In this document: positions 6,805 to 58,745 of the stretch, one piece after another
Layout of the letters: each line of letters starts with the position of its first letter
How positions within the stretch are numbered: position 1 is the first letter of the stretch
Origin: an uncultured Clostridia bacterium
GTDB taxonomy: Bacteria > Bacillota > Clostridia > Christensenellales > Borkfalkiaceae
Reading direction: 5' to 3'
Assembly: GCA_947630325.1 (NCBI GenBank)
Contig: CANRHB010000001.1
Location: forward strand, 219,579 to 283,578
DNA: 64,000 bases
Translations under genes and position numbers: made by a program
The notes under the pieces: generated by a model
The model's input: the letters and a program-made list of their open reading frames with translations, nothing else
What the model was told of the DNA's origin: nothing
Database searches by the model: none

Positions 6805-6844
6805 GAAAACCTCTTTCACAGAAAGCATTCCCTTTCTCGGCTTC

Positions 6845-6873: not shown

Positions 6874-6908
6874 TCGTTTGGAAAAAATTAGGTAAAAGAG
6901 CAAAAAAG

Positions 6909-6931: not shown

Positions 6932-6954
6932 TACATTATTATATATGGGGGGGA

Positions 6955-7525: not shown

Positions 7526-7529
7526 TTTC

Positions 7530-11263: not shown

Positions 11264-11308
11264 CGCCCAAACGCCCTTAGATACCGCCGCGTTCAAAGGA
11301 AAAACATC

Positions 11309-12043: not shown

Positions 12044-12849
12044 AAAACACGAATTTCTCCGCCGAGCACCTCAAATGGCGGAAAAAACGAAAGATAAGGC
12101 TCATTGTCGTCCAATCCCTCCGCGTGGGGCTCCTCCTCTTTTTTCTCCTTTTCTGGGAACTCTCTACGCGGCTGGGCTGGGCGGACCCCTTTTTGGTAAG
12201 CTCCCCCTCCCGCATTGCCGCCACCATCGGTTCGCTCTATGCGGAGGGAACGCTCTTCTACCACATCGGCGTCACCCTGCTTGAAACGGCGATCGGTTTT
12301 CTTGCCGCCGTCGCGCTCGGGTATGCGATCGCCCTCCTCCTTTGGTGGAGCGATATGCTCCGCCGCATCCTCGAGCCCTACATCGTGGTGCTCAACGCCC
12401 TGCCCAAGATCGCCATGGGACCCCTCATCATCATCTGGTGCGGGACGGGAAGCAAGGCGATCGTGTTCATGACCATCCTCGTCGGCATCATCGTCGTCAT
12501 CATGCACATGCTCTCCGCCTTCCTCGAGACGGACGCGAACAAACTGCTTCTGCTCCGCTCCATGGGCGCAAGCAAATTGCAGATCCTCACAAAGCTCGTC
12601 ATCCCCTCATCGCGCGCGGCGTTTATCTCCATGTTGAAGGTGGCCGTGGGCATGAGTTGGATCGGCTCGATCATGGGCGAATATATCGTGTCCCGCGCGG
12701 GGCTCGGCTACCTCATCGTGTACGGCGGGCAGGTGTTCAAACTCGACCTTGTGATGACGGCGACCGTGATCCTTTGCGCGCTTGCCGCGGGAATGTACTT
12801 CCTTGTGGTGCTTCTCGAAAAGATACTCGTAAAAAATACAAAGAATTGA
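12040..12849 (+). CDS. ABC importer permease (SsuC/TauC-like)
   Basis: This 269-residue membrane protein starts at the ATG overlapping the ATPase stop. It has about six hydrophobic segments and an EAA-type loop (LLRSMGASKLQILTKLVIPSSRAAFISML) that contacts the ATPase. It belongs to the BPD_transp_1 family of the nitrate/sulfonate class. The last 240 bases are also open on the opposite strand as the tail of the YkvI-like gene. The start MKNTNF was preferred over an earlier in-frame ATG because of the ATGA overlap. Confidence 0.93.
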   Translation: MKNTNFSAEHLKWRKKRKIRLIVVQSLRVGLLLFFLLFWELSTRLGWADPFLVSSPSRIAATIGSLYAEGTLFYHIGVTLLETAIGFLAAVALGYAIALLLWWSDMLRRILEPYIVVLNALPKIAMGPLIIIWCGTGSKAIVFMTILVGIIVVIMHMLSAFLETDANKLLLLRSMGASKLQILTKLVIPSSRAAFISMLKVAVGMSWIGSIMGEYIVSRAGLGYLIVYGGQVFKLDLVMTATVILCALAAGMYFLVVLLEKILVKNTKN

Positions 12850-13752
12850 AAAGGCAAGTCCCGCTCCCCCGAGCACGGGATAGAGCAGACGGACGATGCC
12901 CGAAAGCCCCAATCTCGACAGACAGAACGCCGCCGCGAGTACAGACACCCGCGCGGCGTTTTTTGTTTTGGGAGAAGGGAGCACTTCGCAGAGGGCAAGA
13001 AGCGGATAGAGCGCGGAGCCGAGCGAGGTGACGATGGCAAGCCCCGAGGCGACATAAAATATTTTGTTCCCCCGCATGGCGGAGAGGAAGGGAAGTTCGG
13101 CGCCGATCGCGCTCTCCCCCGCCCGAAAGACAGCGCCGAGCACCGCGCACGCGCAGAGAAAGATGAGAAGAGAGGCAAGGAGCGCAGAGAGCACGGGACG
13201 CTCCGCCTCCGCCCCGACGTCGAGGAGAACGGGCACCGCAAGCAAGACGTTCATGCCCGCATACAGCGCGCCCATTCCCGCCCCCGCGGGCAGGGGGGAA
13301 ACGAGCGTTCCGCCGCGCGCGAAGATCAGCACAAAGGCGACGAGCACGGGCACGAGAATGCAGTTGAGCAGAGTGATGCCGCGCGTTCCCTTCCTCAAAA
13401 ACAGGAGCACGGCGGCAAGCCCCAAGAGGGAAAGAAGGGGCGAAAAGGTCGGCGCGAGAGCGTCTAAGCCCGCCAGCATTCCCGCGCAGGGAACAAAGGA
13501 GAGCAGAGAGATCGCCGTGCGCACCCACTTCCCCCCGCGGCCGAAGAGTGCCCCCATCGCCTTCGCATATCCCCCATGCCGCTTCCCGAGCAAAAGGAAG
13601 AGGGAGGTTAGCGCAAAAAAGAGAAAGAAGGACAAAGCAAGGGCGGGCAGAACGCTCTTCACGCGGAAGAAACGGACAAGTTCCGCGCCCGACAGAAAAC
13701 CCGCGCCGATGCACGTCCCCACAATGAATAGCGTCGTTTTGATGAGCCCCAT
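12607..13752 (-). CDS. YkvI-like multispan membrane protein with antisense-overlapping tail
   Basis: The first 312 or so residues look like a real protein of the YkvI/putative transporter type. It begins MGLIKTTLFIVGTCIGAGFLSGAE, which resembles the first helix of APC-fold transporters, and has about nine or ten hydrophobic helices. From about residue 302 to the stop at residue 381 the frame runs antisense through the 3' end of the ABC permease. That tail is charged and histidine-rich (EKHHKEVHSRGKRAKDHGRRHH), unlike the rest. The original stop may have been lost, or the C-terminus truncated by rearrangement. No terminator separates these convergent genes. Substrate unknown. Confidence 0.72.
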   Translation of the reverse strand: MGLIKTTLFIVGTCIGAGFLSGAELVRFFRVKSVLPALALSFFLFFALTSLFLLLGKRHGGYAKAMGALFGRGGKWVRTAISLLSFVPCAGMLAGLDALAPTFSPLLSLLGLAAVLLFLRKGTRGITLLNCILVPVLVAFVLIFARGGTLVSPLPAGAGMGALYAGMNVLLAVPVLLDVGAEAERPVLSALLASLLIFLCACAVLGAVFRAGESAIGAELPFLSAMRGNKIFYVASGLAIVTSLGSALYPLLALCEVLPSPKTKNAARVSVLAAAFCLSRLGLSGIVRLLYPVLGGAGLAFSILCIFYEYLFEKHHKEVHSRGKRAKDHGRRHHKVEFEHLPAVHDEVAEPRAGHDIFAHDRADPTHAHGHLQHGDKRRAR

Positions 13753-13769
13753 TTCCTATATCTATGAAA

Positions 13770-20337: not shown

Positions 20338-21603
20338 ATGGAAATTTACGAATGCGCACGGCTGACGCGGAAAGAATTCGCCGTTTCGGTCCCCGCTTCC
20401 AAGAGTATCTTGAACCGCGCCCTCCTGCTTGCCGCCTTTACCGAGGGCGACACCCTGCTTTCGGGCTGCGGAAATTTCGGGCAGGACAGCGAAGATCTGC
20501 TCTCCTGTCTCTCTTCGCTCGGCATTAGCACAGAGCGGGCGGGCGATAAAATTTGCGTGCACGGCGCCGCTACATTCGGCAAAAAGGCAACTTTGAACGT
20601 GGGGAGCGCGGGCACCGCCGCCCGTTTTTTGACGGCCATCCTCGCTTTTTCGGGGGGAGAATATGACCTCGACGCCTCCCCCCAGATGAAAAAACGCCCC
20701 ATGGACTTTTTGGACGTGCTCGAAAGGGAGGGTGTGCGGATAGAATACGGCGAAAAAGTCGGGCATTTCCCCTTCCGCCTTGAAAGCCGTGGCATTTCTT
20801 CGGACGTTCTCACCGTGGACACCGACGTCAGCACCCAATATGCGAGTGGGCTCCTGCTTGCCGCCGCCGTCGGGAACAAGCCGCTTACCCTTCTTCTCAC
20901 GGGAAGCCGCACGGAGGGCAGTTACATTCAAACGACCCTCGACGTGGTGCGCGCGTTCGGCGGAAATTTCTCCCGCGCGGGAAACAAAATTACCCTCTTC
21001 CCCATCCAAACCGCCGCGAAGGAGTATGCGGTCGCCCCCGATTTTTCGGGCGCGTGCTACTTTTACGCCCTCTCCCTCCTCTGCGGGGCAAGGGCGCTCG
21101 TGAACGGCGCGCACCCCGATTGCGGACAGACCGATTTGAAACTGCTCGATGTTTTGAAAGAAAAAGGGGTAAAAGTGACTGACACCCCCGCGGGAATGGT
21201 AGCGGACGGCGGAAATATTTCCACTTTTAGCGGGTTCGACGTGGATATGCAAGATTTTTCGGACCAAACGCTGACGCTTGCCGCGCTTGCGCCGTTTGCG
21301 GCGACCCCCTCCGTTCTCAAAAACATCGGGCACATCCGCAAGCAGGAGTGCGACCGCGTGGAGGCGATCTTGCACAATCTGACCGCCCTCGGCGTGCCCT
21401 GCGAATGCCGCGGCGAGGATATCTTGATATATCCCGCGCCCGTGCGCCCCGCAACGCTCGAAAGTTACGGGGACCACCGCGTCGCCATGGCGTTTGCGCT
21501 TGTCGGGCTCAAAGCGGACGGGATAAAAATCAAAGATCCCGAATGCTGTAAAAAGACATTTGGGAACTACTTTGAAATTTTGGATGAATTGACGAAAAAA
21601 TAA
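20338..21603 (+). CDS. aroA: 3-phosphoshikimate 1-carboxyvinyltransferase (EPSP synthase)
   Basis: This 421-residue enzyme joins shikimate-3-phosphate and phosphoenolpyruvate in the shikimate pathway. Diagnostic segments are VSVPASKSILNRALLLAAF at the N-terminus, NVGSAGTAARFLTA (residues about 86-99), a GDHRVAMAFAL segment near the C-terminus and IRKQECDRVEAI. The start at 20338 was chosen because it begins the conserved domain and follows the -10 box by six bases; the longer frame from 20206 would cross the divergent YgjP-like gene. No Shine-Dalgarno sequence is present. Confidence 0.95.
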   Translation: MEIYECARLTRKEFAVSVPASKSILNRALLLAAFTEGDTLLSGCGNFGQDSEDLLSCLSSLGISTERAGDKICVHGAATFGKKATLNVGSAGTAARFLTAILAFSGGEYDLDASPQMKKRPMDFLDVLEREGVRIEYGEKVGHFPFRLESRGISSDVLTVDTDVSTQYASGLLLAAAVGNKPLTLLLTGSRTEGSYIQTTLDVVRAFGGNFSRAGNKITLFPIQTAAKEYAVAPDFSGACYFYALSLLCGARALVNGAHPDCGQTDLKLLDVLKEKGVKVTDTPAGMVADGGNISTFSGFDVDMQDFSDQTLTLAALAPFAATPSVLKNIGHIRKQECDRVEAILHNLTALGVPCECRGEDILIYPAPVRPATLESYGDHRVAMAFALVGLKADGIKIKDPECCKKTFGNYFEILDELTKK

Positions 21604-21632
21604 ACCGAGCGGTGGTAGAACCCAACGAAAAG

Positions 21633-21658
21633 AGCGAAACATTGATTTCGCTTTTTTC
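21633..21658 (+). terminator. Terminator of aroA
   Basis: AGCGAAA-CATTGA-TTTCGCT followed by six T residues. Confidence 0.85.
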
Positions 21659-21681
21659 TTTTGCGAAAAAGCGCGTGGCGC

Positions 21682-21710
21682 TTGACTTCTTCTCGCCCTT
21701 GTGCTATACT
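21682..21710 (+). promoter_or_regulatory. Promoter of the structured RNA/leader
   Basis: TTGACT (21682-21687), 17-bp spacer, TATACT (21705-21710). Seven bases downstream is G21717, the first base of the RNA closing stem. Confidence 0.85.
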
Positions 21711-21716
21711 AAAAAT

Positions 21717-21937
21717 GCCAAACAAACTTTATAACCGATGATGGGAGGATTTTTATGTTTTTTTAATAGGAACAGGGAAGGTTTATCCTGCCCTTATGTT
21801 GTACATATTAGAATTTTGCAAAACTGCAAATTCCAATATATGTACGACATTGATCCGTCCCATATATAAAGTTTGTTTGGCGACAACCGGAGTTTGCGTT
21901 TTGTATGCGTCAGCTTCGGTTGGCGCATTTTTTATTT
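21717..21937 (+). ncRNA. Unclassified structured RNA: leader/attenuator or independent small RNA
   Basis: The predicted transcript starts at G21717. GCCAAACAAACTTTATA (21717-21733) pairs perfectly with 21865-21881 (P1, 17 bp). Inside, ATGGGAGGAT (21741-21750) pairs with 21853-21863 with one bulged G (P2). A hairpin with AGGG/CCCT and AGG/CCT steps spans 21774-21794 (P3). GTACATA and its complement near 21801-21845 carry an inner GAATTT/AAATTC plus GCA/TGC stem-loop (P4). A terminator follows at 21906-21933: TGCGTCAGC, a TTCG loop, the pairing arm, then six T. Bases 21880-21889 can alternatively pair with 21917-21926 and disrupt that terminator. The LRR lipoprotein ATG is at 21957, after AAGGAG. 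I do not recognise the family; it does not look like 6S, SRP or tmRNA. Confidence 0.75.
21906..21933 (+). terminator. UUCG-loop terminator at the end of the structured RNA
   Basis: A nine-pair stem, TGCGTCAGC with GTTGGCGCA (two G-T pairs), is closed by TTCG and followed by TTTTTT. It ends about 24 bp before the lipoprotein start. Confidence 0.88.
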
Positions 21938-21956
21938 ATTTACAAGGAGAAAGTTT

Positions 21957-23240
21957 ATGAAAAAACGGTTTATCATGATTTTGTCGCTCGTATTTGCGAT
22001 TTGCCTGTGCTTTGCGCTCACCGCCTGCGGCGGACTTTTCGGTATCGGATCAAGCGGGAACAACAGCGGAAGCAACAATTCAAGCAGTGCGGGCTCTTCG
22101 AGTTCCTCGGGCTCCTCGGGCAACAACAGCGGGTCAAGTTCGAGCGGAAACAACAGCCAGCCCAAAGAGGACAACGACGGCACCTTTATCTATTCTGGCG
22201 CCTCTATCAAAGCGGCGAGCACTTCGATTTCGGGCGAGATTACGATCCCCGCGGAGCGCAATGGTACCCCGATCGACACGATCCCTGCGGACGCATTCAA
22301 AGGGTGCAACGCGATCACTTCCATTACCGTTCCCGAAAGCGTGACGACGATCGGTGCAGGCGCGTTTAACGGTTGCTCTTCCCTTCGGAGCATCACTTTA
22401 CCTTTTGTCGGTAGTCAACAAGGAAATAGCGGTGAAGAAGCGGCATGTTTTGGGTATATATTTGGAGAAAGATCTTATCAAGGTGGTGTGTCGATACAAC
22501 AAACCTACGATACAGGGTTTAAAACGTACGAAAATTTTTACATTCCTTCTACTTTGCGAAACGTTACCATTACAAAAGAATCTATTCTCAATTATGGAGC
22601 TTTCCAAAATTGTTCCATGTTGACCAAAATCGAATTAAACAACGAAATTATTCAAGTAGGAGTTAGTTGTTTTGAAGATTGCTCAAAAATCGAAGAAATC
22701 AACCTGCAGAGTATTTCGATCATCCCCGCTTCTTTGTTTAGCGGATGTATCTCATTGAAAAAGTTCACAATTAACTCTTCTGTCGATACCATTGGAGAAA
22801 AAGCATTCAAAGGCTGTAGTGCATTATCGTCCATCAATTCGGAAACGGCGGGGACCTTTATCATTCCGGATACAATAACTTCGATTGGGTCGGCAGCATT
22901 CAACGGGTGTTCCATGGTTAAAACCATCATTTTGCCCTTTGTCGGCAGTCAAAAGGGAAATAGCGGGACAGTATCGGCTTGTTTTGGGTATGTTTTCGGC
23001 TCAACCCCATACCAAGGTGGAACATCGATACGCCAAACGTACAGCACAGGTTTTAAAACGTATGAAGATTTTTACATCCCCACTATCCTGCGTAGTGTAA
23101 CAATTACAAGCGAAACGGTTTTGTGTTATGGCGCGTTCCAAAACTGCTCTATGCTCCAATCTATTACAATCAACAAAGGGGCGCAGAGTTCCGTCGGTGA
23201 AAAAGCCTTCGAGAATACCGCAAAACCCACTTGGATATGA
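21957..23240 (+). CDS. BspA-like leucine-rich-repeat lipoprotein
   Basis: This 427-residue protein has a lipoprotein signal with Cys 24 (ALTAC), then a Ser/Gly/Asn-rich linker (about residues 33-70) and LRR_5/BspA-type repeats (for example ITSITVPESVTTIGAGAFNG). BspA-like proteins are cell-surface proteins often linked to adhesion. Residues about 134-224 and 313-402 are near-duplicates, including LPFVGSQ, CFGY, TGFKTYE and YGAFQNCSML. From about base 22400 the gene is visibly richer in A+T than its 5' end, suggesting the repeat region was acquired or exchanged. The start MKKRF has AAGGAGAAAG upstream and sits right after the structured RNA. Confidence 0.88.
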   Translation: MKKRFIMILSLVFAICLCFALTACGGLFGIGSSGNNSGSNNSSSAGSSSSSGSSGNNSGSSSSGNNSQPKEDNDGTFIYSGASIKAASTSISGEITIPAERNGTPIDTIPADAFKGCNAITSITVPESVTTIGAGAFNGCSSLRSITLPFVGSQQGNSGEEAACFGYIFGERSYQGGVSIQQTYDTGFKTYENFYIPSTLRNVTITKESILNYGAFQNCSMLTKIELNNEIIQVGVSCFEDCSKIEEINLQSISIIPASLFSGCISLKKFTINSSVDTIGEKAFKGCSALSSINSETAGTFIIPDTITSIGSAAFNGCSMVKTIILPFVGSQKGNSGTVSACFGYVFGSTPYQGGTSIRQTYSTGFKTYEDFYIPTILRSVTITSETVLCYGAFQNCSMLQSITINKGAQSSVGEKAFENTAKPTWI

Positions 23241-23258
23241 CCTACACATAATATGACA

Positions 23259-23294
23259 AACGCCGCGGCGCTTCCATGGAAGCGCCGCGGCGTT
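23259..23294. terminator. 36-bp perfect palindrome, terminator of LRR lipoprotein
   Basis: A perfect 18+18 bp palindrome (AACGCCGCGGCGCTTCCA and its complement) is followed on the plus strand by CTTTTTTCTC. It sits between convergent genes. Confidence 0.85.
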
Positions 23295-23305
23295 CTTTTT
23301 TCTCT

Positions 23306-23668
23306 TCAATTCTCAATATACTTTTTCAAAATTTCGAACATTTCGTCGGAGATGACGTGCTCGATGCGGCAAGCGTTGCTCTCGGCAAGCTCCTTGTCCG
23401 CCCCCACCGCCATGAGCGCCTTGGTGATGACGCGGTGGCGTTCGTACACCCCCGCCGCCTTCTTCTGCCCGCTTGCCGTCAGCGTGATGTCGCCCGATCC
23501 GTCGATTTCGATATATCCCTTCTTGTGCAACAGCCCCACCGCGCGGGAAACGCTCGACTTGGCATAGCCGAGTTCCTCGCAGACGTCGATGGAGCGGACG
23601 TTCGCCCGCTTCTCCTTCAAAAGCAAAATTGTTTCAAGATACATCTCTTCCGATTCGTGCGATCTCAT
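23306..23668 (-). CDS. DtxR/MntR-family metal-dependent repressor
   Basis: This 120-residue regulator has the winged helix typical of DtxR/MntR: SEEMYLETILLLKEKRANVRSIDVCEELGYAKSSVSRAVGLL. The dimerisation region follows, with ERHRVITKALMAVGADKELAESNACRIEHVISDEMF. The Glu/His positions in that part resemble the metal ligands of MntR. It probably senses manganese or iron and represses uptake genes; no such gene is adjacent. An inverted repeat sits inside its own promoter, pointing to autoregulation. GAGAGGG precedes the ATG. Confidence 0.92.
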   Translation of the reverse strand: MRSHESEEMYLETILLLKEKRANVRSIDVCEELGYAKSSVSRAVGLLHKKGYIEIDGSGDITLTASGQKKAAGVYERHRVITKALMAVGADKELAESNACRIEHVISDEMFEILKKYIEN

Positions 23669-23693
23669 AGCATCCCTCTCGCTCGTTTTTTAC

Positions 23694-23722
23694 ATTATAC
23701 AACATTTTATGTGAAATGTAAA
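23694..23722 (-). promoter_or_regulatory. Promoter of dtxR/mntR-like gene with operator in the spacer
   Basis: Minus strand TTTACA (23717-23722), 17-bp spacer, TATAAT (23694-23699). The spacer holds ACATTT-TATGTG-AAATGT (23702-23719), an 18-bp inverted repeat well placed as the regulator's own operator. Confidence 0.75.
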
Positions 23723-23740
23723 GAATATTTTGAAATTTTT

Positions 23741-25585
23741 TTACTCTTTTACCCGCACATAGATCGCATAGCGTTCCTTGTACCGCTTGAAGTGGGGAGA
23801 AAATTTGAGCGGCGGCTCCGACTTCATCACAAAAATTTCCCCCTCCCGCACGAAAAATTTCGTCGGCTCTTCGAAGAGGGCATAGAGGTCGTTCACCTTG
23901 ACCGTGACCTCGCACGGCTCTCCCGAGGGAATGGTGACGTTTTCGCCCGTCGTCTCCGTCCGCATGTCATCACTGCCGAGGTCTGCGGAGAGCAGAACGC
24001 CGCCGAAGCGGAAGGCAAAGGCGTTTTCGCCGTCGGGAAGCCCCTTCATCCCCATCTCCACGGGGATCTTCAGCGTGATCTCGTCCCCCTCCTTCACCGC
24101 CACCGTCACATGGCCGCTCCCCTCGAGCAGTTTGACGGGCGCGCCGTTCTTTGTCGCCTCGGGATATCCCGCCGCCCACTCGGGAAGGCGCAGGCAGAGC
24201 AGGAACGGCTCCTTTGCCCTGAGCACCTTGAAGGTCGCCCCCTCTCCAAAGGGAAGATCCGCACTCTGCAAAAGGGCGACGTCCTCCCCCTCATAGACGG
24301 AGGAGAGATACCGCTCCACGAACAGGCTCTTGCCGTTGCGGTAGTAGATGCCGTCGCCGAGCTTGGTGAAATTCTCCATTCCCGTGCCCGTACAGCACCA
24401 AAAATTTTGCTCGGGCGAGGAGAAAACCTTGAAATAGCCGCTTGCCATCGCCTGGAAATAGGTCGTCATGCCCGTTTCGGGGTTTTGGGAGGAGAGAATT
24501 TGATTGGTGAACGCGTTGTCGTAATAGTCGCAGTACTCCTTCCGCCCCGTGGCGAGGAACAAGCCGCGCGCAAGTTTCAACATGTTGTAGACATTGCAGG
24601 TCTCGCAGTTGCAGTTTGTGCGCTCTTTGTCGAGAACATCGTCCTTGCCGAAGCGCTCCCACTCAGAATTCCCCCCCGTCGCATAGGTGTGATGGGTCGT
24701 CACCGTTTGGAAGAAACACTCCGCCGCATGAAGATAGCGAGAAGCGTCCACCTTTTCGCCGCAGAGTTCCCCCCCGTGGAGGGTAAGGTAGCGGTTGAGC
24801 GCGCCGAGGAATTTGGGGATCGTCGTGTTCGCGTGCAGGTCGTCGAGAACGTTTGGCTCCATGGAGAGGACGCGGTCGAAGAGTTCCTCCTCGTCGAAGA
24901 GATGGGCGGCGACGGCGTGCGCGGGCTTCTCTGTAAGCGAGTAGAGTTCATAGAGGGCGTCGTTCATGCCGCCGTACTCCGTCTCGAGCACCGTTTTATG
25001 GGTTCTTTCGTCCCAAGAAGAGGCGCGCTCATACACCCAATCGCCGAGTTTTTCGGCCACAGAGAGAGCGGGCGCATACCCCGTGCACTTGTATGCTTCC
25101 ACGAGCCCCGCCAAAATTTTGTGCAGGGTGTACCACGGCACCCACGCCTGCGTATAGATGTCCGTCTCGCCCCGCTCCACATGGTCGAACTGCGCCTCGA
25201 TGCCGCCCGCGACCGGAGGAGCCCCCCATACGAGCCCGATCGGCGCCGCCTTCTGGCACTCTGCAAGGCAGTCGATGATGTTCTTCATCTTGTTGAATAG
25301 TTTTTTTCGGTCGGGTTCGGGCACGGCGGGGTTGACCGCCCCCTGCGATACCGCCGTAAGATAGTGCCCCAAAGTGTGTCCGCCCATGAGCCCGCTCTCC
25401 CAGCCGCCATAGCGGACAAAGGGCGTTTTCAGCCCCGCGTTCTCGCAGAAGCCCGCAAGCAACCTCCCCTCTTGCAGAGAGAGCAGGTACGAAACTTCCT
25501 TTTCGAGTGCGTTTTTGCAGTAGCCGTCCGTCACCGTGACCTGCGATAGCGCGGCGGGTTGCAAGTTAGTCTTTAATTTGATCAT
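23741..25585 (-). CDS. GH127-family beta-L-arabinofuranosidase
   Basis: This 614-residue protein matches the DUF1680/GH127 layout, an (alpha/alpha)6 barrel followed by beta-sandwich domains. The zinc-cysteine catalytic site is visible: a Glu and Cys in NCNCETCNVYNM and the pair in FWCCTGTGMENF. In characterised members one of these cysteines is the nucleophile. GGWESGLMGGHTLGHYLTA near the N-terminus is also typical. It has no signal peptide, so it would act on imported oligosaccharides. Its ATG overlaps the stop of the upstream phosphatase by four bases. Together with the GH51-type lipoprotein at 47177 it suggests use of arabinose-containing plant glycans. Confidence 0.92.
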   Translation of the reverse strand: MIKLKTNLQPAALSQVTVTDGYCKNALEKEVSYLLSLQEGRLLAGFCENAGLKTPFVRYGGWESGLMGGHTLGHYLTAVSQGAVNPAVPEPDRKKLFNKMKNIIDCLAECQKAAPIGLVWGAPPVAGGIEAQFDHVERGETDIYTQAWVPWYTLHKILAGLVEAYKCTGYAPALSVAEKLGDWVYERASSWDERTHKTVLETEYGGMNDALYELYSLTEKPAHAVAAHLFDEEELFDRVLSMEPNVLDDLHANTTIPKFLGALNRYLTLHGGELCGEKVDASRYLHAAECFFQTVTTHHTYATGGNSEWERFGKDDVLDKERTNCNCETCNVYNMLKLARGLFLATGRKEYCDYYDNAFTNQILSSQNPETGMTTYFQAMASGYFKVFSSPEQNFWCCTGTGMENFTKLGDGIYYRNGKSLFVERYLSSVYEGEDVALLQSADLPFGEGATFKVLRAKEPFLLCLRLPEWAAGYPEATKNGAPVKLLEGSGHVTVAVKEGDEITLKIPVEMGMKGLPDGENAFAFRFGGVLLSADLGSDDMRTETTGENVTIPSGEPCEVTVKVNDLYALFEEPTKFFVREGEIFVMKSEPPLKFSPHFKRYKERYAIYVRVKE

Positions 25586-49883: not shown

Positions 49884-49918
49884 AAATAGCTTGAACCCTG
49901 CGTTCGGGCTATTTTTTT
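49884..49918 (+). terminator. Terminator of tRNA-Leu
   Basis: AATAGC and GCTATT form the outer stem with an inner GAAC/GTTC stem, followed by a run of T. It overlaps the end of the minus-strand recombinase gene. Confidence 0.85.
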
Positions 49919-50522
49919 ATATGAAAATCTGTTTTAATTTTCGGATATGATAATAAAAATTTTCCCGCTTGATGCCGAGGAGGCTTGCGGCATGGAGCGA
50001 GGAAATTCGTTTGTTGATATACTCCTCTGCAATTCTCAAAAATTCGGCAGAGTAAATTTTGGGCGGCCTGCCGAATTTTACGCCGTTTTGCTTCGCTATC
50101 TTGATCCCCTCGGCTTGGCGCGCGCGGATGTTCTCCCGCTCGTTTTCCGCTACAAAGGACAGCACCTGCAAAACGATGTCCGAGATGAATTTTCCGACAA
50201 GCGTGTCCGCCTTCGCCCGCGTATCGAGAAGCGGCATATCGAGAACGAGGATGTCCGCCCCCAAGGTGCCTGTGATGTACGACCATTCGGCGATGATCTG
50301 GTCGTAATTGCGTCCCAAACGGTCGATGGACTTCACAACGAGAAGGTCGTCGGCTTTCAACTTCTTCATGAGCCGCTTATATTCTCTGCGGTCAAAGTCC
50401 TTTCCGCTCTTCTTGTCGGTGAAAATATGTTGTTTTTCGATGCCGAACTCGATGAAGGCGGCGATCTGCCTCTCCAGGTTTTGGTCGCGTGCAGAGACGC
50501 GGGCATAAGCATACATTTCCAT
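49917..50522 (-). CDS. Serine recombinase (resolvase/invertase family)
   Basis: This 201-residue protein begins MEMYAYARVSARDQN with the nucleophile Ser 10. It has the catalytic-domain segments SGKDFDRREYKRLM, VKSIDRLGRNYDQI and ENERENIRARQAEGIKIAK, and ends with a helix-turn-helix after GRPPK. The size is that of resolvases and invertases, not large integrases. It sits directly behind tRNA-Leu. Direct repeats at 50621 and 50715 upstream of its start could be its target. AAGGAG precedes the ATG. Confidence 0.94.
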   Translation of the reverse strand: MEMYAYARVSARDQNLERQIAAFIEFGIEKQHIFTDKKSGKDFDRREYKRLMKKLKADDLLVVKSIDRLGRNYDQIIAEWSYITGTLGADILVLDMPLLDTRAKADTLVGKFISDIVLQVLSFVAENERENIRARQAEGIKIAKQNGVKFGRPPKIYSAEFLRIAEEYINKRISSLHAASLLGIKRENFYYHIRKLKQIFI

Positions 50523-50751: not shown

Positions 50752-51696
50752 ATGAAAAAGTTTGCAACAACACTCACTGCGTTCGCCTGCGCCCTCTGCC
50801 TCTGCTTCGGACTTGCCGCCTGCGGCGAGAGCGAGACGGTTGCGGTGGAGAGCGTAAAACTCAGCGAAACGGCATTGACGCTCGAGATCGGCGAAAAAAA
50901 GACGCTCACGGCGACCGTTTCCCCCGATAATGCGACGGATAAAACGGTGACATGGAAGTCCGACCACTCCGAGATCGCAACAGTGGATAACGGAGAAGTG
51001 AAGGCGGTTGCCGAAGGAACGGCATCGATCACCGCGTCCGCAGGCGGCAAGAGCGCGACCTGCTCGGTCACCGTGAAAGCTCCCACCCCGACAAATGAGG
51101 TCACCGCAGACGAGTGGCGTTCCCTTATGGCGAATCAGAAAAATTTTAAGTTTTATGAGTGGGTAGATGGTTTAGAACTTAGTGCAGATCTTGACGACCC
51201 CGGTCATGTTATGTCATGGGACGGAGATAAAGTGATCGTTTACCAATACGACGGCCCCTTTCTCTTTGTTTCGCCGAATGCAAGTTACTGCTTTGTAAAC
51301 AGGTACGTTTTCGAAAACGGTAAGTTCGTCAATAAAAACAAATGGGCCAAAGAAAATGCCGATATGTCTGTTTCCATCTATGCTTCGCGTGATAGTCAAG
51401 CAGCGTTCTTTGCATTTTTAGGCGAACATTATAAGGACTTTGTTTATAAGGACGGCGCCTATACCTGCGCTTCGCTCACCTTCACATCCACGGTCGGATC
51501 CCAGAGCGTTGAACAGGTTTTTGAAGATATAAAAGTAGTTTTCGAGAACAAAACTTTGATGGAAATTTCGTACAGTATCGATACTTTAGAAAAAAATCCA
51601 GATGGGACCGCTATCATTGGACATGGCAAATATACCTCTTTCGGCAGGACGAAAATAGAAATACCGACCGAATACGACGACCACACCACCGCGTAA
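50752..51696 (+). CDS. Ig-like (BIG2) domain lipoprotein
   Basis: This 314-residue protein has a lipoprotein signal (MKKFATTLTAFACALCLCFGLAAC, Cys 24). A bacterial Ig-like BIG2 domain follows (about residues 30-108: VESVKLSETALTLEIGEKKTLTATVSPDNATDKTVTWKS, ending TCSVTV). The remaining 200 residues form a domain I do not recognise. That second part is clearly richer in A+T than the first, hinting at a different origin. It is likely exposed on the surface. GGAG lies nine bases before the ATG. Confidence 0.88.
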   Translation: MKKFATTLTAFACALCLCFGLAACGESETVAVESVKLSETALTLEIGEKKTLTATVSPDNATDKTVTWKSDHSEIATVDNGEVKAVAEGTASITASAGGKSATCSVTVKAPTPTNEVTADEWRSLMANQKNFKFYEWVDGLELSADLDDPGHVMSWDGDKVIVYQYDGPFLFVSPNASYCFVNRYVFENGKFVNKNKWAKENADMSVSIYASRDSQAAFFAFLGEHYKDFVYKDGAYTCASLTFTSTVGSQSVEQVFEDIKVVFENKTLMEISYSIDTLEKNPDGTAIIGHGKYTSFGRTKIEIPTEYDDHTTA

Positions 51697-51725
51697 AATT
51701 TCCCACGAAACGTGAAAAAAATTAT

Positions 51726-51762
51726 AAACAGAGCGTCCGCAAAATTTGAGGACGCTCTGTTT
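51726..51762. terminator. Bidirectional terminator between lipoprotein and RsbW-like genes
   Basis: AAACAGAGCGTCC pairs perfectly with GGACGCTCTGTTT around an 11-base loop; T-rich on the plus strand. Confidence 0.88.
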
Positions 51763-51765
51763 ATT

Positions 51766-52173
51766 TCAAAAATTCTTTTGAACGGTAAGGATGTTTTGGC
51801 CGTCCTTGTGCTCGTAATGCACGCCGTCCATGCTCTTTTTTACCATGTAGATGCCGAGGCCTCCGATGCCGCGCTCCTCGGCGGAAAGGGTGACGTCGGG
51901 GTCGGTCTTTTTGAGAGGATCGAAGGGCACGCCGCGGTCGAAAAAGGTGATGACGGCGGAGAGCGGTTCCTTTTTTACCTCCACCCGCACGGTGACGGGG
52001 CCCGTTTTGGGAAAATAGGCGTAATTTGCGATGTTTCCGAACAGTTCGTCGACGGCGATGTCGATGACGTGGAGGGTCCTTAACGGGCAGTTCCACGCTT
52101 CGAGTTCTTCGTTGACAAAGTCGGTCACCCGATCGAGATTCTCCGTTTTTGCTTCAACGGTGATCTCTTTCAT
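51766..52173 (-). CDS. RsbW/SpoIIAB-like serine kinase (anti-sigma type HATPase)
   Basis: This 135-residue protein has the GHKL ATPase motifs: N box VDELFGNIANYAYFP, G1 FDRGVPFDPL and G2 RGIGGLGIYMVKKSMD. It is the size of RsbW/SpoIIAB-type kinases, which phosphorylate an antagonist STAS protein and often hold a sigma factor. It overlaps the SpoIIE-type phosphatase by four bases and ends the STAS-NRPS-phosphatase-kinase operon. No sigma factor gene is present, so the target of the switch is not clear. Confidence 0.93.
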   Translation of the reverse strand: MKEITVEAKTENLDRVTDFVNEELEAWNCPLRTLHVIDIAVDELFGNIANYAYFPKTGPVTVRVEVKKEPLSAVITFFDRGVPFDPLKKTDPDVTLSAEERGIGGLGIYMVKKSMDGVHYEHKDGQNILTVQKNF

Positions 52174-53621
52174 TCCCCTACCTCCGCCTTTGCCTTGTAT
52201 TCGAGGCAGAGCATGGTGATGTCGTCGAATTGAGGGGCGCTTCCCACAAACTTATCGATGTCCGCTTTCACGGCGGGGAGAAGGTCCGAAGGGGGAAGTT
52301 CGCTGTTGTCGCCGAGCACCTGTTCGAGCCGTTCCATGCCGTAAAGGTGATTGCCCGCGTCGGTCGCCTCGGTGACGCCGTCGGTGTATTGGAAGATCTT
52401 GTCCCCCACCTCCATCGTCAGCGTGCCCGCGCGGTACTTCATGCCGTCCATGCCCGCAAGCACGAACCCGGGTTTTATCTTGTGCGGCAGGAATTTCTCT
52501 CCCTTTTTGCAGAGGAAGGGGGTCTCATGCCCTGCGTTGACATAGCGCAGTTCCCCCGTCACGAGGTCCAGAACGCCCATGAACGCCGTGATGAACAACC
52601 CCTCGCTGTTGCTCTCGCAAAGAAGCTGGTTGACCTCCGAAAAGACGGCGCCGAGGTCGGCGTCCTTCGTCGTATGGTCCTTGATGAGGGTCTTGCCGAT
52701 GACCATGAAGAGGGCCGCGGGCACCCCTTTGCCCGAGACGTCCGCCATGACGATGGCGACGTGGGTATCGTCCACCATAAAGAAGTCGTAAAAGTCGCCG
52801 CCGACCTCCTTTGCGGGGTTCATGGTCGCAAAGATATCGAACTCCTTCCTGTCGGGGAAGGCGGGGAAGATGCAGGGCAGCATGGACTGCTGGATGTTCG
52901 CCGCGACGGAGAGCTCCGCCTCCGTTTTCATCGCCTTTGCGCTCTGGTTGACCGAATAGAAGATCATCCAGAATTCGACGACGAAGATGATGCACATGGT
53001 AAGATAGAGCGGGAAGAACAGCTGATGGTTGGGGAAGATGCCCACGCTGTTGCTGATGAGGTTGACGACGTAAAAGCCGATGACCGAGATAAAGAGCGGC
53101 GGCACAAAGATGCCCATTCTCCCCTTCACCGCCTCGACGGTGGCGTGGAGGCGCTTCTTGAAGAAGATCGCATACAAGACCGCGATGACGATGTACACAA
53201 ACAGCTTGATCCCGATGAAGAAGAGCAGGTTGGCTACTTCGTAAGGGCTCTCTTTGATGAGCCCGAGCACGGGGGCAAGCAACGAATCGGTGGTGCCGCA
53301 GAGCATGAAGGTGGAGACGTTCCCCACAAGGCAAGCCATGAGCGCGACCGAGAGTTTTGTGGACCACGTGTCCTTATACAAGATCTGCGAAATGATGCAC
53401 ACCATTGCCGAGAGCCCGAGGATCCCGAAGGCGTCGTTGGTAAGGTCGAGCCAATAGAAGAGGAAGGCGAGACCGTACCCGACGATCGCGCCCGCGCCCC
53501 AGACGAGGGCGCGGATCCACCCCTTGTACTTGGGCATGAGGGTGATCCCCGTAAGGACCGCGCTGAATACCGAAGCGAGATAGACCGCAAAGGTCCATAA
53601 TGCGATGACTGTAAATTCCAT
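52170..53621 (-). CDS. Membrane SpoIIE/RsbU-type PP2C phosphatase
   Basis: This 483-residue protein has about seven membrane helices in residues 1-230, a short linker (AELSVAANIQQSMLP) and a PP2C-type domain. That domain shows KEVGGDFYDFFMVDD, VMADVSGKGVPAALFM, FITAFMGVLD and QFDDITMLCL, including the metal-binding aspartates. Such proteins dephosphorylate STAS antagonists in response to a signal. The N-terminal region may sense a ligand in the membrane, perhaps the NRPS product. I chose the ATG at 53621 because GGAGG lies five bases upstream; a TTG at 53639 is less likely. It follows the NRPS by 14 bp. Confidence 0.92.
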   Translation of the reverse strand: MEFTVIALWTFAVYLASVFSAVLTGITLMPKYKGWIRALVWGAGAIVGYGLAFLFYWLDLTNDAFGILGLSAMVCIISQILYKDTWSTKLSVALMACLVGNVSTFMLCGTTDSLLAPVLGLIKESPYEVANLLFFIGIKLFVYIVIAVLYAIFFKKRLHATVEAVKGRMGIFVPPLFISVIGFYVVNLISNSVGIFPNHQLFFPLYLTMCIIFVVEFWMIFYSVNQSAKAMKTEAELSVAANIQQSMLPCIFPAFPDRKEFDIFATMNPAKEVGGDFYDFFMVDDTHVAIVMADVSGKGVPAALFMVIGKTLIKDHTTKDADLGAVFSEVNQLLCESNSEGLFITAFMGVLDLVTGELRYVNAGHETPFLCKKGEKFLPHKIKPGFVLAGMDGMKYRAGTLTMEVGDKIFQYTDGVTEATDAGNHLYGMERLEQVLGDNSELPPSDLLPAVKADIDKFVGSAPQFDDITMLCLEYKAKAEVGE

Positions 53622-53635
53622 TTTATCCTCCGAAA

Positions 53636-56600
53636 TCAAAACATATCCATATCGCCGAGGGCGGTAAGATATTTTTCAAGATATTCGTCCGTGATCTCCC
53701 GCCAACCGCATCCGAGCGAATGCAACTTTTCGAGCGTATAAGCGCGGGAGAACGGAATGTAGTCGAAATCGGCGTTCCCTCTTTCGATGGAGAGCATTTC
53801 GACGGAGCCGCTCTTTTCCCCGGACAGTTTGAGTTCTTCGATCTTTTTCTCGAACGCCTCGTCGGAGACGATCTCCACGGGGCGGTCCAACTTCTTCAAG
53901 ATCTCGAAGAGGCGGGCAAACGCCGTCTCCGCGGGCGGGCAGACGTGGAACGCGCCCCCCTCTCCGCTCTTGCAAAGCGCGACGACCATCTTCGCCACTT
54001 CGTCCACGGGAGAGAATTCCACCGTGGAATCATAGAGGGACTGCGGCACCGCGCCGATGTCGAGATAGGCGGAGAGCCTGCGGGTAAAGCCGTTGGAGCG
54101 CAAATTCATCTGGAATTCGCCGTCCGAGAGCCTGCCCTGCAAGTTGCCGACGCGCATGATCTGCACTTTGAGCCCCTTGTCCGCCGCCGCGCGCAGGAGG
54201 GCGTATTCCGCCTTGAACTTGGTGTAGATGTATTCGTTGAAGATGCGCTGTCCGACGTAAAGGTCCTCCTCTTGGAACAGCATTTGGGAAAGAGCAGACT
54301 TTTTTGCCATTCCCCCCACGCTCACCGTGGAGATTTGAAGCAGGCGTGCGCCCGTCTTTAAGGCGTAGGCGATGAGGTTTTGCACCCCGCCCTCGTTGAC
54401 GCGGGAGAGCGCGTCGCCATAGGCAAAGTGCGCTACGTTCGCCGCGCAGTTGATGATGAGGTCGATCTTTTCCTCAAACGGTTCGGCAAACAGGTCGGGG
54501 TTCGAAATGTCCCCCTCGACGGCCGTCCACTTTTTCTCCTCGGTGAAATCGTCCTCGGCATAGTAGAAGAGGGCGCCGCGGATGCGCTTTTCGGCCGTCA
54601 TCTTTTTCTTGGTGCGGGCGAGGCAGTAGATGTGCTCCGCACTGCCGCTCCTCAAAAGTTCGGCGAGGATATGGTTGCCCAAAAAGCCCGTGCCGCCCGT
54701 TAAAAGTACGTTGCCGAGTTTCCCCCCGAGCGGGGCGTGCGCTTTGAGATATTCCCCGATCCCCTCATAGTTGAGGTCGTGGATGGGATATTGCTCTTCC
54801 TCGCTCCCCCCTTCCATGAGTGCGGCGAGTTTCGCGGGGGTGGGACAGCGGTAAATGTCGCTGTAACCCGGGGCGTTTTCCTTGCGGATGCGCTCCAAGG
54901 CAAGCATGAGTTCCATTGCGCCGAGAGAGTCGCCGCCGAGTTCGAAAAAGTCGTCGTCCGCACCGACGTCCGTGACGCCGAGCACCTCCTCGAACGCGCC
55001 GCAAATGCGCTTTTCGAGTTCGCTTTCGGGCGCGCGGTAGGAGCCGCGGAGATCGACGCTCTCCGCTTCCAACTTTTTATAATCGGTCTTGCCGCCCGCC
55101 GTCTGCGGCAGAGCGGGAAGGCGCACAAAGACGTCGGGGACCATGTAGTGGGTAAGCGTCGCCGAGATGTGCGCTTTGAGTTCTTCGCTCAAATCCCTTG
55201 CCGCCGAGTAGAAGGCGACGAGGTGTTCGCTGTGGCGGCTCTTTTTGACGAGGCACGCCGCCTGCGTCACCTCCGCAAAGGAGAGCATGGCGCTCTCGAT
55301 CTCGGGAAGTTCTATTCTCAATCCCCGAAGTTTGACCTGTCTGTCCCGCCGCCCCATGTAGAGGACCCTGCCGTCGGGAAGAAGCCTGCCCGTATCTCCC
55401 GTGCGATAGAGGGCTCTTCCCTTCCGCACGATGAAATGCGCCGCCGTCTCCTCGGGGCGGTTGAGATACCCAAGACCCAGCCCCGCGCCATAGATGCAGA
55501 TCTCCCCCACTGCGCCAAAGGGAAGAGGGTCGCCGTTTTTATCCGCGATGAGAATGCCCGTGTTTGCGATGGGCTTTCCGATGGAACGGCTGTCCCCGTC
55601 CTCCGTGATGGTCGCACCGATGGTGACTTCCGTCGGTCCGTACCCGTTGAAGATGTGCACGCCGAGTTCTTTGAGGGAGGCGATGAGGGAGGGCGGCAAC
55701 ACTTCGCCCGCCGAGAGCACCGCTTTGAGCTTTTCCGTCTCCGCAAGGAAACGGGGGTTGCGCAGATAACTTGCAAGACGGGTGGGCGTGCAGTGCAGTG
55801 CGTCCGCGCCGTGGGCGGCGATACACTCCGCAAGCCGCTCGGGGTTGATCATGCCCTCCTCGTCGGCAAGTTCCACGAATTTGCCGTTGAAGAGGGTCAC
55901 GAAAAATTCAAAGAGCGAGATGTCAAAGCAGATGGAGCCGATGGCCGTAAGCCCCTTGCAGTGCTTTGTAAGATAGCGGTTGAAGGGGTTGTTTTGAGGT
56001 TTTACGATGTTGGCGATGCCGCGGTGCGAGAGCATGACCCCCTTGGGTCTGCCCGTCGTGCCCGAAGTGTAGATCATATAGGCGACGTCCGCCTGCGAAA
56101 CGTCGGGAAGGGAAGCGTTGCCGCCCTTCAAGAGTTCGTCGATGTCGAGCCCCTTTCCCGTCTCCGAAGAGGTGATGAGGAAGGCGGCCGCACTGTCCTG
56201 CAAGATGTAGTCGATACGGTCCTGCGGATAGGCGGGATCGACGGGGATAAACGCCGCGCCCGCTTTGGAAATGCCGAAGAGGGCGGGAAGAAGGCGGATG
56301 TCCCGCTTGAGCATGAACCCGACCTTGTCCCCCCGCTTTACCCCACGCGCCACAAGGGCACGGGCGATCGCGTCCGACTGTGCGTCGAGTTCGGAAAAGC
56401 TGAGCGTCTTGTCCCCCGCATACACCGCGGGCGCATTGGGACGCTCCTTTGCAACGGCGCGAAGAAGGGAGGGAATGGTCTCCGCGCTGTCGATTGGATA
56501 CTCTTCCCCGCGCACTGCGTTTAGACGCGCCTTTTCCCGCTCTCCGAGAATGTCGATCTCGGCAAGCGGTTTCTCCTTCACGCCCTGCGCAAGAATATGT

Positions 56601-57721
56601 TCGATACTTTCAAAGAAATATTCCGCGCGCTCCTCGTCATACACCCCTTTGCGGCAATCGAGCGAACACGCCATATTCTCCCCCGCGAACACGTTCAGAA
56701 CGAGGTGGTTGCCGAGCGCGCCCGCAACGCTCACCGAAATTTTATGCGGAACGGCGGAATGGAGGGAAAAGTCGTAATAATTGAACCCGTATTGCGAAAC
56801 GTTCTTGATTTGGGCGACGTGCGCAAGGCGGGAATAGCCGATCTTGCTGTGACGGGAGGCCTCTTTCCCCGCTTCCTGCGCGCGGCGGCAGAGGTCGGCA
56901 AAGCTTTTACACCCCTCGAGTTTGAGCCGAAGCGGCACGAGCAGAATATAGCAGCCGAGGACGTCCGCCGTCTTTGCATTGCGGTTGCGGCGGGACATGA
57001 GCACCGTCGCCTCCTCCCCGTCCGTCGCGCGGGCGAGGTAGAGGGCCTCCGCCGCGAGGAAGGCGTAGGGAAGATGGAACCCCTCTCTCTTTGCAAATGC
57101 GGAGAGCTCTTCGATGAGCGCGGGAGAGAAGTTGCGGAAACAGGTCAGCTTTTCCCCCGTCCCGCCGTCGGGAAAGAGAATTGTCTCCTTGGAAAAGCCG
57201 TCGAATTGCTCCTTCCAATAGGCGTCGTCGTCCGCCTCTTCCTGCGTTTCCTCGCCGAAATAGCGGGAGACGGGCGGCTCCTTCCCCTCGAGCGCGTCGA
57301 GTACGCGCTGCGCAAAGAGGTACATCCCCCTCCCGTCCATGATGACGTGGTGGAAGCGGGCATAGAGAAAAACTTTCCCCTCGGAGGGAATGATCTCTGT
57401 TTCATAGAGTTTTTCCGCAGGGTCGATCCGCTCGGCGTCCTTTCTTCGCATGTAGGCGAGGGCCTCGTCTTTTGTCATCTCGGGCAAAACGCGGGAAAGA
57501 TGGGGCTCGCTGTCCTCGAACTTCTCCCCCGTAAAGCGGACGGCAAAAACGTCCGCCGAACGGATCACGCGATCGGCGGCAAGACGCACTTCCTCGGCGC
57601 TGCGGCCCTCTATCTCCAACGTGACGGAGATGGTGTTGAACGCCGCGCCCTCGGCAACTCTCTCTTCCCGCAAAATTTCCTCCTGGGGAAGTTGCGGGGC
57701 ATATGATCTCAAATCGCTCAT
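53636..57721 (-). CDS. Single-module NRPS (C-A-PCP) with terminal thioester reductase
   Basis: This 1361-residue enzyme has four domains. The condensation domain (1 to about 400) has HHVIMDG at 124-130. The adenylation domain (about 410-890) has IYTSGTTGRPKG near 550, NGYGPTE near 692, YRTGDTGRLL near 772 and the A10 Lys 878 in GGKTDYKKL. The carrier protein has FFELGGDSLGAMEL, phosphopantetheine Ser 932. The reductase has GGTGFLG at 1009-1015 and YxxxK at 1164-1168. The expected product is an N-acylated amino aldehyde or alcohol released with NADPH. The residues lining the pocket read as D600, I601, F604, H643, L669, A671, G693, I701, G702; I cannot match these to a known amino acid. It is flanked by STAS, phosphatase and kinase genes, with no PPTase or exporter. 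Confidence 0.95.
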   Translation of the reverse strand: MSDLRSYAPQLPQEEILREERVAEGAAFNTISVTLEIEGRSAEEVRLAADRVIRSADVFAVRFTGEKFEDSEPHLSRVLPEMTKDEALAYMRRKDAERIDPAEKLYETEIIPSEGKVFLYARFHHVIMDGRGMYLFAQRVLDALEGKEPPVSRYFGEETQEEADDDAYWKEQFDGFSKETILFPDGGTGEKLTCFRNFSPALIEELSAFAKREGFHLPYAFLAAEALYLARATDGEEATVLMSRRNRNAKTADVLGCYILLVPLRLKLEGCKSFADLCRRAQEAGKEASRHSKIGYSRLAHVAQIKNVSQYGFNYYDFSLHSAVPHKISVSVAGALGNHLVLNVFAGENMACSLDCRKGVYDEERAEYFFESIEHILAQGVKEKPLAEIDILGEREKARLNAVRGEEYPIDSAETIPSLLRAVAKERPNAPAVYAGDKTLSFSELDAQSDAIARALVARGVKRGDKVGFMLKRDIRLLPALFGISKAGAAFIPVDPAYPQDRIDYILQDSAAAFLITSSETGKGLDIDELLKGGNASLPDVSQADVAYMIYTSGTTGRPKGVMLSHRGIANIVKPQNNPFNRYLTKHCKGLTAIGSICFDISLFEFFVTLFNGKFVELADEEGMINPERLAECIAAHGADALHCTPTRLASYLRNPRFLAETEKLKAVLSAGEVLPPSLIASLKELGVHIFNGYGPTEVTIGATITEDGDSRSIGKPIANTGILIADKNGDPLPFGAVGEICIYGAGLGLGYLNRPEETAAHFIVRKGRALYRTGDTGRLLPDGRVLYMGRRDRQVKLRGLRIELPEIESAMLSFAEVTQAACLVKKSRHSEHLVAFYSAARDLSEELKAHISATLTHYMVPDVFVRLPALPQTAGGKTDYKKLEAESVDLRGSYRAPESELEKRICGAFEEVLGVTDVGADDDFFELGGDSLGAMELMLALERIRKENAPGYSDIYRCPTPAKLAALMEGGSEEEQYPIHDLNYEGIGEYLKAHAPLGGKLGNVLLTGGTGFLGNHILAELLRSGSAEHIYCLARTKKKMTAEKRIRGALFYYAEDDFTEEKKWTAVEGDISNPDLFAEPFEEKIDLIINCAANVAHFAYGDALSRVNEGGVQNLIAYALKTGARLLQISTVSVGGMAKKSALSQMLFQEEDLYVGQRIFNEYIYTKFKAEYALLRAAADKGLKVQIMRVGNLQGRLSDGEFQMNLRSNGFTRRLSAYLDIGAVPQSLYDSTVEFSPVDEVAKMVVALCKSGEGGAFHVCPPAETAFARLFEILKKLDRPVEIVSDEAFEKKIEELKLSGEKSGSVEMLSIERGNADFDYIPFSRAYTLEKLHSLGCGWREITDEYLEKYLTALGDMDMF

Positions 57722-57724
57722 GAT

Positions 57725-58021
57725 TTATTCTATTGTAAGGATTTCCGAAAAGCCCGTGATCTCGAATACTTCGGCGATCGTCTCGTTGACGTTTTTGATG
57801 ACCATGGAACCTTGCTTGTTCATGACCTTTTGCGCGGCCAGCAAAACGCGCAGGCCCGCCGAAGAGAGATATTCGAGTTTTGCAAAATCAAGGACAAGCT
57901 CGGTAATATCTGTAATACTGCGCTTGAATTCGGTTTCAAGCTGAGGCGCCGTTGTGGTATCGAGTCTGCCCTCGAGCGCAACGACAAGTTTGGTTCCCTC
58001 TTGTTTTTTGTCGATCATCAT
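57725..58021 (-). CDS. STAS-domain anti-anti-sigma-like antagonist
   Basis: This 98-residue protein is a STAS domain: LVVALEGRLDTTTAPQLETEF, then ELVLDFAKLEYLSSAGLRVLLAAQKVM. The SSAG region carries the Ser that RsbW-type kinases phosphorylate. It is the likely substrate of both the kinase at 51766 and the phosphatase at 52170. It is the first gene of the operon and lies three bases before the NRPS start. The ATG at 58021 (or the next codon) follows GGAGGG. Confidence 0.93.
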   Translation of the reverse strand: MMIDKKQEGTKLVVALEGRLDTTTAPQLETEFKRSITDITELVLDFAKLEYLSSAGLRVLLAAQKVMNKQGSMVIKNVNETIAEVFEITGFSEILTIE

Positions 58022-58060
58022 AACACCCTCCGAAAAGCGATAAAATTTGTTGATATTTGT

Positions 58061-58089
58061 ATTATAACTGATTTTCCCGTCCAACGCAA
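58061..58089 (-). promoter_or_regulatory. Promoter of the STAS-NRPS operon
   Basis: Minus strand TTGCGT (58084-58089), 17-bp spacer, TATAAT (58061-58066). Confidence 0.75.
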
Positions 58090-58124
58090 GGAAAAAAAGC
58101 CAAATAGTTTGTGAAATCTTTTTT

Positions 58125-58745
58125 GTTTGCCCCCTTATTTCCCCCTCCTTAGGGGGTACTTGCCCACCCTTGAGGGATGGGTGGCACGAGCGAAGCGAAG
58201 TTAACATGTCCTTATTACAATGCGGACACCCTTCGACAGGCTCAGGGTGACGTAATGATAATAAGGCGAGATTTCTCCACGCGCCGCATAGCGGCTTGGT
58301 CGAAATGACAATTAAAACCCTCGGCGCCCCTGTAGGGGAGCTGTCGCGCCTGCGCGACTGAGGGGTTCTCATACCAATAGACAGAAACCCTTTTCCCCTC
58401 GCGTTGCTCGGGTACTTTCTCATGCGGGTAGAGCCCCGCATTCGGTCACCGTTCGCGCCTCTGATGCGCTCACTCCTGTCGCATTGCGCCAACAGTTATC
58501 AACTGTTGGCAGAATGCAATGCTCCACCTAAAAGGGACAGCAAGGGAGGAATGCGTAAACCATTCCCAAATCACGTCATGTTGAGCGTAGTCGAAACATG
58601 CCCTTATTACAATGTGGACGCCCTTCGACTTCGCTCAGGGTGACGTAATTTAGAACACGCCCCACCCCCTCCCCCCTCCCACGGAGGGGGTAAATGGGAG
58701 ACCCCTCCCACGGAGGGGGTAGCTCTCCCTCAAGGGGGAGCCGAG
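58125..58745. repeat. Mosaic repeat island upstream of rarA
   Basis: The gene-free stretch repeats modules of the 6955-7525 island, some inverted: GCGAGATTTCTCCAC and CGCATAGCGGCTTGGTCG near 58265, GGCGCCCCTGTAGGGGAGC near 58323, CTAAAAGGGACAGC near 58529. It also has CCTTCGACAGGCTCAGGG near 58230 and CCTTCGACTTCGCTCAGGG near 58622, and several CCCACGGAGGGGG blocks at 58678-58720. No credible gene is present. Confidence 0.8.

Follow-up and report, generated by a model that had tools for sequence, protein, structure and literature searches.

What does a partner-switching module control when it encloses a biosynthetic enzyme and has no sigma factor gene beside it? This question is raised by a locus in a 64,000-nucleotide stretch of DNA, here called the window, from an uncultured Clostridia bacterium (GenBank assembly GCA_947630325.1, contig CANRHB010000001.1, positions 219,579 to 283,578; the genome comprises 1.97 Mb in 40 contigs). 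Four minus-strand genes lie in one tight row and encode a STAS protein, a nonribosomal peptide synthetase (NRPS) with condensation (C), adenylation (A), peptidyl carrier protein (PCP) and reductase (R) domains, a membrane SpoIIE-type phosphatase and an RsbW-like kinase. The best reading of the locus, to which we give an even chance, is a partner switch that would act on biosynthesis and transport proteins and be driven by a dedicated sensor. The features of the operon are as follows.

58061..58089, minus strand: putative promoter, with -35 TTGCGT at 58089-58084, a 17-bp spacer and -10 TATAAT at 58066-58061
57725..58021, minus strand: STAS protein of the anti-sigma-antagonist type, 98 aa (PF01740, TIGR00377), presumed phospho-acceptor Ser54
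53636..57721, minus strand: single-module NRPS, 1361 aa (Condensation, AMP-binding, PP-binding, NAD_binding_4); C domain at residues about 1-400, A domain 404-890, PCP 895-970, thioester reductase 1000-1361
52170..53621, minus strand: membrane SpoIIE/RsbU-type phosphatase, ATG at 53621, alternative TTG start at 53639
52935..53639, minus strand: sensor part of the phosphatase, seven long helices, residues 1-235 of the TTG reading
51766..52173, minus strand: RsbW-like GHKL kinase, 135 aa (HATPase_c_2), recognized by domain match and family profile

The STAS and NRPS genes are separated by 3 bp, the NRPS and phosphatase genes by 14 bp (from the ATG at 53621), and the phosphatase and kinase genes overlap by 4 bp, so co-transcription of the four genes is very likely. 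The open reading frames (ORFs), domains and spacings agreed with those of an initial annotation made from the sequence alone, which had also placed all four genes under one promoter. The perfect -10 element favors that claim, but the -35 element matches the consensus at only 3/6 positions and the promoter was absent from the consensus-scan list; a single promoter is thus plausible rather than proven. That annotation gave 58089 as the operon end; the putative promoter begins there, and the STAS gene itself begins at 58021.

Sequence and structure analyses supported the view that the STAS protein, kinase and phosphatase form a complete partner switch enclosing the NRPS. The operon proteins have intact active-site residues, which did not vary when selected relatives were aligned. 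Ser54 of the STAS protein was kept in 61 of 62 matches from distinct loci, the remaining match not covering that position. The RsbW-type motifs of the kinase (Glu/Asn of the N-box, DxG and GGLG) were invariant in 24 chosen sequences, and its family profile retrieved RsbW 6m36 (E value, 5.4e-9) and SpoIIAB. The phosphatase has the Asp residues of PP2C enzymes, which we take to be the metal ligands. In a structure search with its model (mean pLDDT 86.3), the nearest folds to the catalytic domain were RsbU of Rv1364c and SiaA; all listed matches lay on the PP2C part and none on the sensor, whose seven helices were judged to be membrane-spanning from their hydrophobic letters. The 120 listed of 132 database relatives of the sensor all carry SpoIIE, and three of them also have a kinase domain, in a search that retrieves only proteins of 0.55-1.75 times the query length. 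The operon resembles RsbU/RsbV/RsbW and SpoIIE/SpoIIAA/SpoIIAB in its phospho-Ser STAS protein, GHKL kinase, PP2C phosphatase and conserved active sites, but differs in containing an NRPS and its own membrane sensor and, as the initial annotation had noted, no sigma gene. In a sigma-controlling switch, the sigma gene is encoded with the kinase.

The C-A-PCP-R order and the catalytic residues place the synthetase among the terminal-reductase NRPSs; HHxxxDG, Ser932 of the PCP and Y1164/K1168 of the reductase were invariant in 16 chosen NRPS sequences. It shares the terminal thioester reductase with AusA, whose NCBIfam model was the best-scoring one, far under its cut-off, and with the gut dipeptide-aldehyde NRPSs, including that of ruminopeptin, which were reportedly described by Guo and co-workers in 2017. 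Those enzymes have two amino-acid modules, whereas only one C-A-PCP module is present here, and the multi-module relatives collected were 31-33% identical. The initial annotation had pointed to peptide aldehydes or pyrazinones; because the enzyme is single-module, a dipeptide aldehyde and its pyrazinone would not be expected from it alone. The more likely product is an N-acyl amino aldehyde or alcohol. Gut members of the terminal-reductase NRPSs are reported as makers of reactive aldehydes in a review (PMC12327764).

The nine-position A-domain code, with positions placed by motifs, was DIFHLAGIG in 61 distinct loci, DIYHLAGIG in five and DISHLAGIG in two (35-94% identity); four partial matches were unreadable, and matches under 34% identity had been left out beforehand. 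We take these nine positions to be the specificity positions of the literature. Since the code is nearly invariant over this range of identity, the family as a whole appears to use a nearly fixed amino acid. The first letters of the code presumably resemble those for hydroxyphenylglycine, and no substrate was assigned. When 45 complete loci were compared, the C domain showed the largest mean pairwise distance (1.42), followed by the R (0.83) and A (0.64) domains. The acyl partner may therefore vary, though C domains of NRPSs are in general less conserved, which weakens the argument. With regard to length, the NRPS of locus L050 has 1524 aa, and an 844-aa in-frame extension of the NRPS in L073 looked spurious by eye. 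A plasmid search gave 11 records, and the 10 listed were distant NRPSs of 28-31% identity.

To what extent does the switch accompany the NRPS? Genome contigs were scanned with the NRPS alignment alone, blind to the switch, and 138 relatives were found; the best 80 of the 138 gave 79 loci, 69 single-module and 10 multi-module. Three loci (L110, L111 and L112) duplicate L033, L038 and L049, and distinct loci were counted where relevant. Among these best 80, the closest named loci come from metagenome-assembled genomes of uncultured Clostridia with isolate names starting with "Lapin". The phosphatase gene lies directly 3' of the NRPS gene in 59 of the 60 single-module loci with at least 1,600 bp downstream; the sole exception, L098, is a contig-edge piece of 32% identity that we take for a multi-module enzyme. 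RsbW comes next after the phosphatase in 47 of 55 single-module loci with at least 2,200 bp downstream and is found somewhere in the locus in 52 of them, being fused to the phosphatase in L060 and L062. STAS was found in 53 of the 69 single-module loci, mostly before the NRPS and in some behind RsbW, and gave no match in the other 16, several of which are short contigs. No phosphatase gene lies directly behind the NRPS in any of the 10 multi-module loci (only 2 bp is available there in L106); some switch genes are near the NRPS in multi-module L099, L101, L105 and L108 and in family loci L113-L115. The four-gene synteny, whose restriction to this genome was named in the initial annotation as a refutation, is thus widespread, and the gene set is, by its sequences, present in many gut bacteria. 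Large clusters surround the single-module NRPS and switch in L050, L054, L055 and L094 and encode a cyclic-nucleotide-binding protein as well as amino-acid uptake functions; those of L050 and L054 additionally contain phosphopantetheinyl transferase (PPTase) and MATE-RsbW genes.

The sensor was also found to go with the NRPS in the distribution across genomes. In evenly drawn samples of 301 family genomes (the same genomes in both), a near full-length NRPS was present in four, namely the window's genome and those of L033, L038 and L049, and the sensor domain was present in the same four, plus one weak fragment with stops. Among 391 class genomes, the sensor was found in the window's genome only, plus two weak stop-containing matches in one other. 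In the family genomes the sensor thus accompanies the NRPS, as would be expected of a product sensor; as in autoinducer synthase-receptor pairs, the candidate receptor is both encoded and co-occurring with the synthase. A mirror-tree comparison was discarded as evidence of product sensing: with the A domain accounted for, the sensor correlates with the C domain (partial r 0.62), but the phosphatase domain does so as well (0.55). In tblastx comparisons with 10 stretches (eight distinct loci), the long matching block starts at 51579-51766 and stops at 58021-58199; beyond it, only scattered matches were found, the longest of about 560 bp, even at 89-94% NRPS identity. As the block stops at the operon borders, the operon is kept or moved as one piece.

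The window's genome contains five HATPase_c_2 domains (one below the cut-off, in a histidine kinase), five SpoIIE and six STAS domains. Three further loci were used for comparison.

Contig C9:34000-46000 (L117), 2343-9800, minus strand: sister cassette of STAS, RsbW, HlyD-like protein, NHLM ABC pair and small ORFs
Contig C7 (L116), 1381-3186, plus strand: sigma switch with STAS, a SigB/F/G-type sigma factor and an RsbW-like gene, in this order
Contig C22 (L118), 1621-3491, minus strand: STAS and a SpoIIE-RsbW fusion protein (554 aa), with no sigma region-2 match on C22

The STAS and RsbW proteins of C9 are 72% and 66% identical to their counterparts in the window operon. After them come a short protein similar to the beginning of the NHLM secretion protein and an NHLM ABC pair whose scores exceeded the cut-offs. 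A SpoIIE phosphatase lies nearby, with a HAMP-like stretch that narrowly missed the cut-off, and no sigma region-2 match was found on the contig. The sigma-linked RsbW of C7 gave no match to the operon's RsbW at 1e-4. Because the exporter-linked RsbW is 66% identical and the sigma-linked one gave no match, the kinase family of the operon is, as judged from these proteins, common to an export cassette and not to the sigma switch within one genome. Exporter genes related to those of C9 follow directly after the RsbW of the NRPS operon in L038, L049, L058, L071 and L100. Three small ORFs lie behind the C9 exporter: two, of 69 and 71 aa, look like GG-leader peptides and are similar in their C-terminal halves, and another, of 100 aa, resembles Nif11-type leaders and has a Cys-rich end; all their family matches are under the cut-offs. 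In L058, the NHLM exporter pair is followed by a LanM-type protein (DUF4135, LANC_like; 21098-23974, plus strand).

Fusions of RsbW-like domains to transporters were found in related loci, as identified from sequence and predicted structure: at the C terminus of MATE exporters, at the N terminus of dicarboxylate symporters and, tentatively, as a tail of amino-acid ABC ATPases. These fusions suggest that the switch may exert direct control over the synthesis and transport of small molecules.

The following course of events is proposed. The single-module NRPS would use a single, nearly fixed amino acid and turn it into an N-acyl amino aldehyde (or alcohol). The membrane phosphatase would read an extracellular or membrane signal and dephosphorylate the STAS protein, which in its unphosphorylated form would bind RsbW-type domains and be rephosphorylated by RsbW. 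The output would most likely be post-translational: RsbW, or in relatives the RsbW-like domains fused to exporters or importers, would lock proteins of biosynthesis and transport in a given state, from which its removal by STAS would release them. We infer the direction of the switch, its ligand, the product and the action of the operon's RsbW on the NRPS or a transporter. A gut communication circuit, in which an acyl-amino aldehyde with a fixed core is sensed by its dedicated membrane phosphatase and the phosphorylation state of STAS is broadcast to RsbW domains grafted onto exporters, amino-acid importers and other parts, is a tentative and rather doubtful extension of this proposal.

Several observations weigh against a switch acting on synthesis and transport. 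Searches with PF13581, which is blind to the degenerate symporter and ABC types, found no MATE-type fusion in the window's genome. The ABC-ATPase tail is tentative: of two proteins scanned, one gave 14.8 bits in Pfam, where the cut-off is 27.4, and the other gave nothing, while hhalign values were 63% and 96%; PDB profile searches gave one match for this tail at an E value of 0.57 and none for the symporter domain. An RsbW-only profile retrieved none of the seven symporter fusions and none of the eight ABC fusions. In four of the eight single-module loci with a MATE fusion, the fusion follows a second, larger NRPS, to which it may belong. Five long loci (L048, L060, L065, L073 and L087) gave no STAS match. 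Finally, the window's genome has eight sigma region-2 matches, and in L057 a sigma gene lies directly before RsbW.

The last two points fit a classical switch, in which RsbW would hold a sigma factor encoded elsewhere and the NRPS would be a co-expressed member or target of its regulon. The membership of RsbW and STAS in anti-sigma families and the STAS-sigma-RsbW locus on C7 also agree with it. Such a switch is nevertheless unlikely in our estimation: outside L057, none of the 68 distinct single-module loci has a sigma-like ORF by a profile of the genome's eight sigma factors (of untested sensitivity), which extends to the family the absence noted in the initial annotation, and the kinship of the operon's RsbW with the exporter-linked rather than the sigma-linked kinase, the transporter fusions and the archaeal parallel described below all argue against it. 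Control of the SiaC type, in which unphosphorylated STAS itself would bind and activate the NRPS and RsbW would serve only as STAS kinase, has a precedent in SiaC, which activates the enzyme SiaD through binding (PMC8457831). SiaABCD of Pseudomonas aeruginosa likewise encodes the switch with the enzyme, and SiaA is among the nearest phosphatase folds; the present operon has an NRPS as its enzyme and a kinase of the RsbW type, and direct contact between STAS and the enzyme is hypothetical. We consider this type of control improbable, as some loci have STAS behind RsbW, others have none near the NRPS, and STAS distances show little excess correlation with those of NRPS domains beyond the A domain (partial r 0.12-0.18). 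A search for NRPSs fused to a switch domain was likewise fruitless: only 4 of 120 homologues had inserts of at least 45 aa, which by eye were low-complexity and not dock-like.

Mere co-travel on mobile DNA, in which the sensor would respond to some unrelated signal and the product would not feed back on the switch, would account for three observations: the matching block stops where the operon does in each of the 10 stretches, the presence is patchy (4/301 family genomes), and L112 has a gene for a TraG-like ATPase close to the operon (11088-13754, minus strand), a hint of a conjugative element. It is nonetheless very unlikely, given that the association persists from 35 to 94% NRPS identity, that the sensor is joined to SpoIIE in every one of its listed relatives and that NRPS and switch-protein distances correlate over 45 loci, as co-inheritance predicts. 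Two further features lie close to the operon: two repeat copies (35 nt, 91% alike, spacing 392) at 58203-58642 of the window, just upstream, with similar letters in a translated small ORF of contig C9, and a serine resolvase gene at 49917-50522 on the minus strand.

A comparable archaeal gene set was published in 2010. In Methanobrevibacter ruminantium (clusters mru0066-0071 and mru0512-0516), an NRPS is flanked by two phosphatases, STAS and MatE, and a PPTase cluster contains STAS, a phosphatase and a kinase; the roles proposed by the authors were to sense the environment, to regulate NRPS expression and to export (PMC2812497). These clusters share the association of an NRPS with phosphatases, STAS and MatE, and of a PPTase with STAS, phosphatase and kinase, but they are archaeal with a two-module NRPS, and the part seen describes no synteny family, sensor or fusions for them. 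To our knowledge, archaea have no sigma factors, so the archaeal set fits a target other than a sigma factor. What is new beside it, on the evidence of the genes, is the fusion of RsbW-like domains to transporters and the linkage of a sister STAS-RsbW pair to a peptide exporter. Neither the four-gene family nor the kinase-transporter fusions were found described in the literature seen, mostly outside subscription papers; the portion of PMC4987999 seen mentions NRPS genes and neither a sigma factor nor a phosphatase. Anti-anti-sigma genes lie alongside a sponge-symbiont single-module polyketide synthase with a reductase domain (PMC3908369, in the part available).

Partner switches without a known sigma factor as output are described as an open question in a review (PMC8256260). 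The family described here supplies directly testable candidate targets, namely the RsbW-fused transporters and the NRPS of the same operon, and a control handle on terminal-reductase NRPSs. If the communication circuit suggested above indeed exists, partner switching would be a protein-level control line for the synthesis and traffic of small molecules, independent of sigma factors and common to bacteria and archaea.
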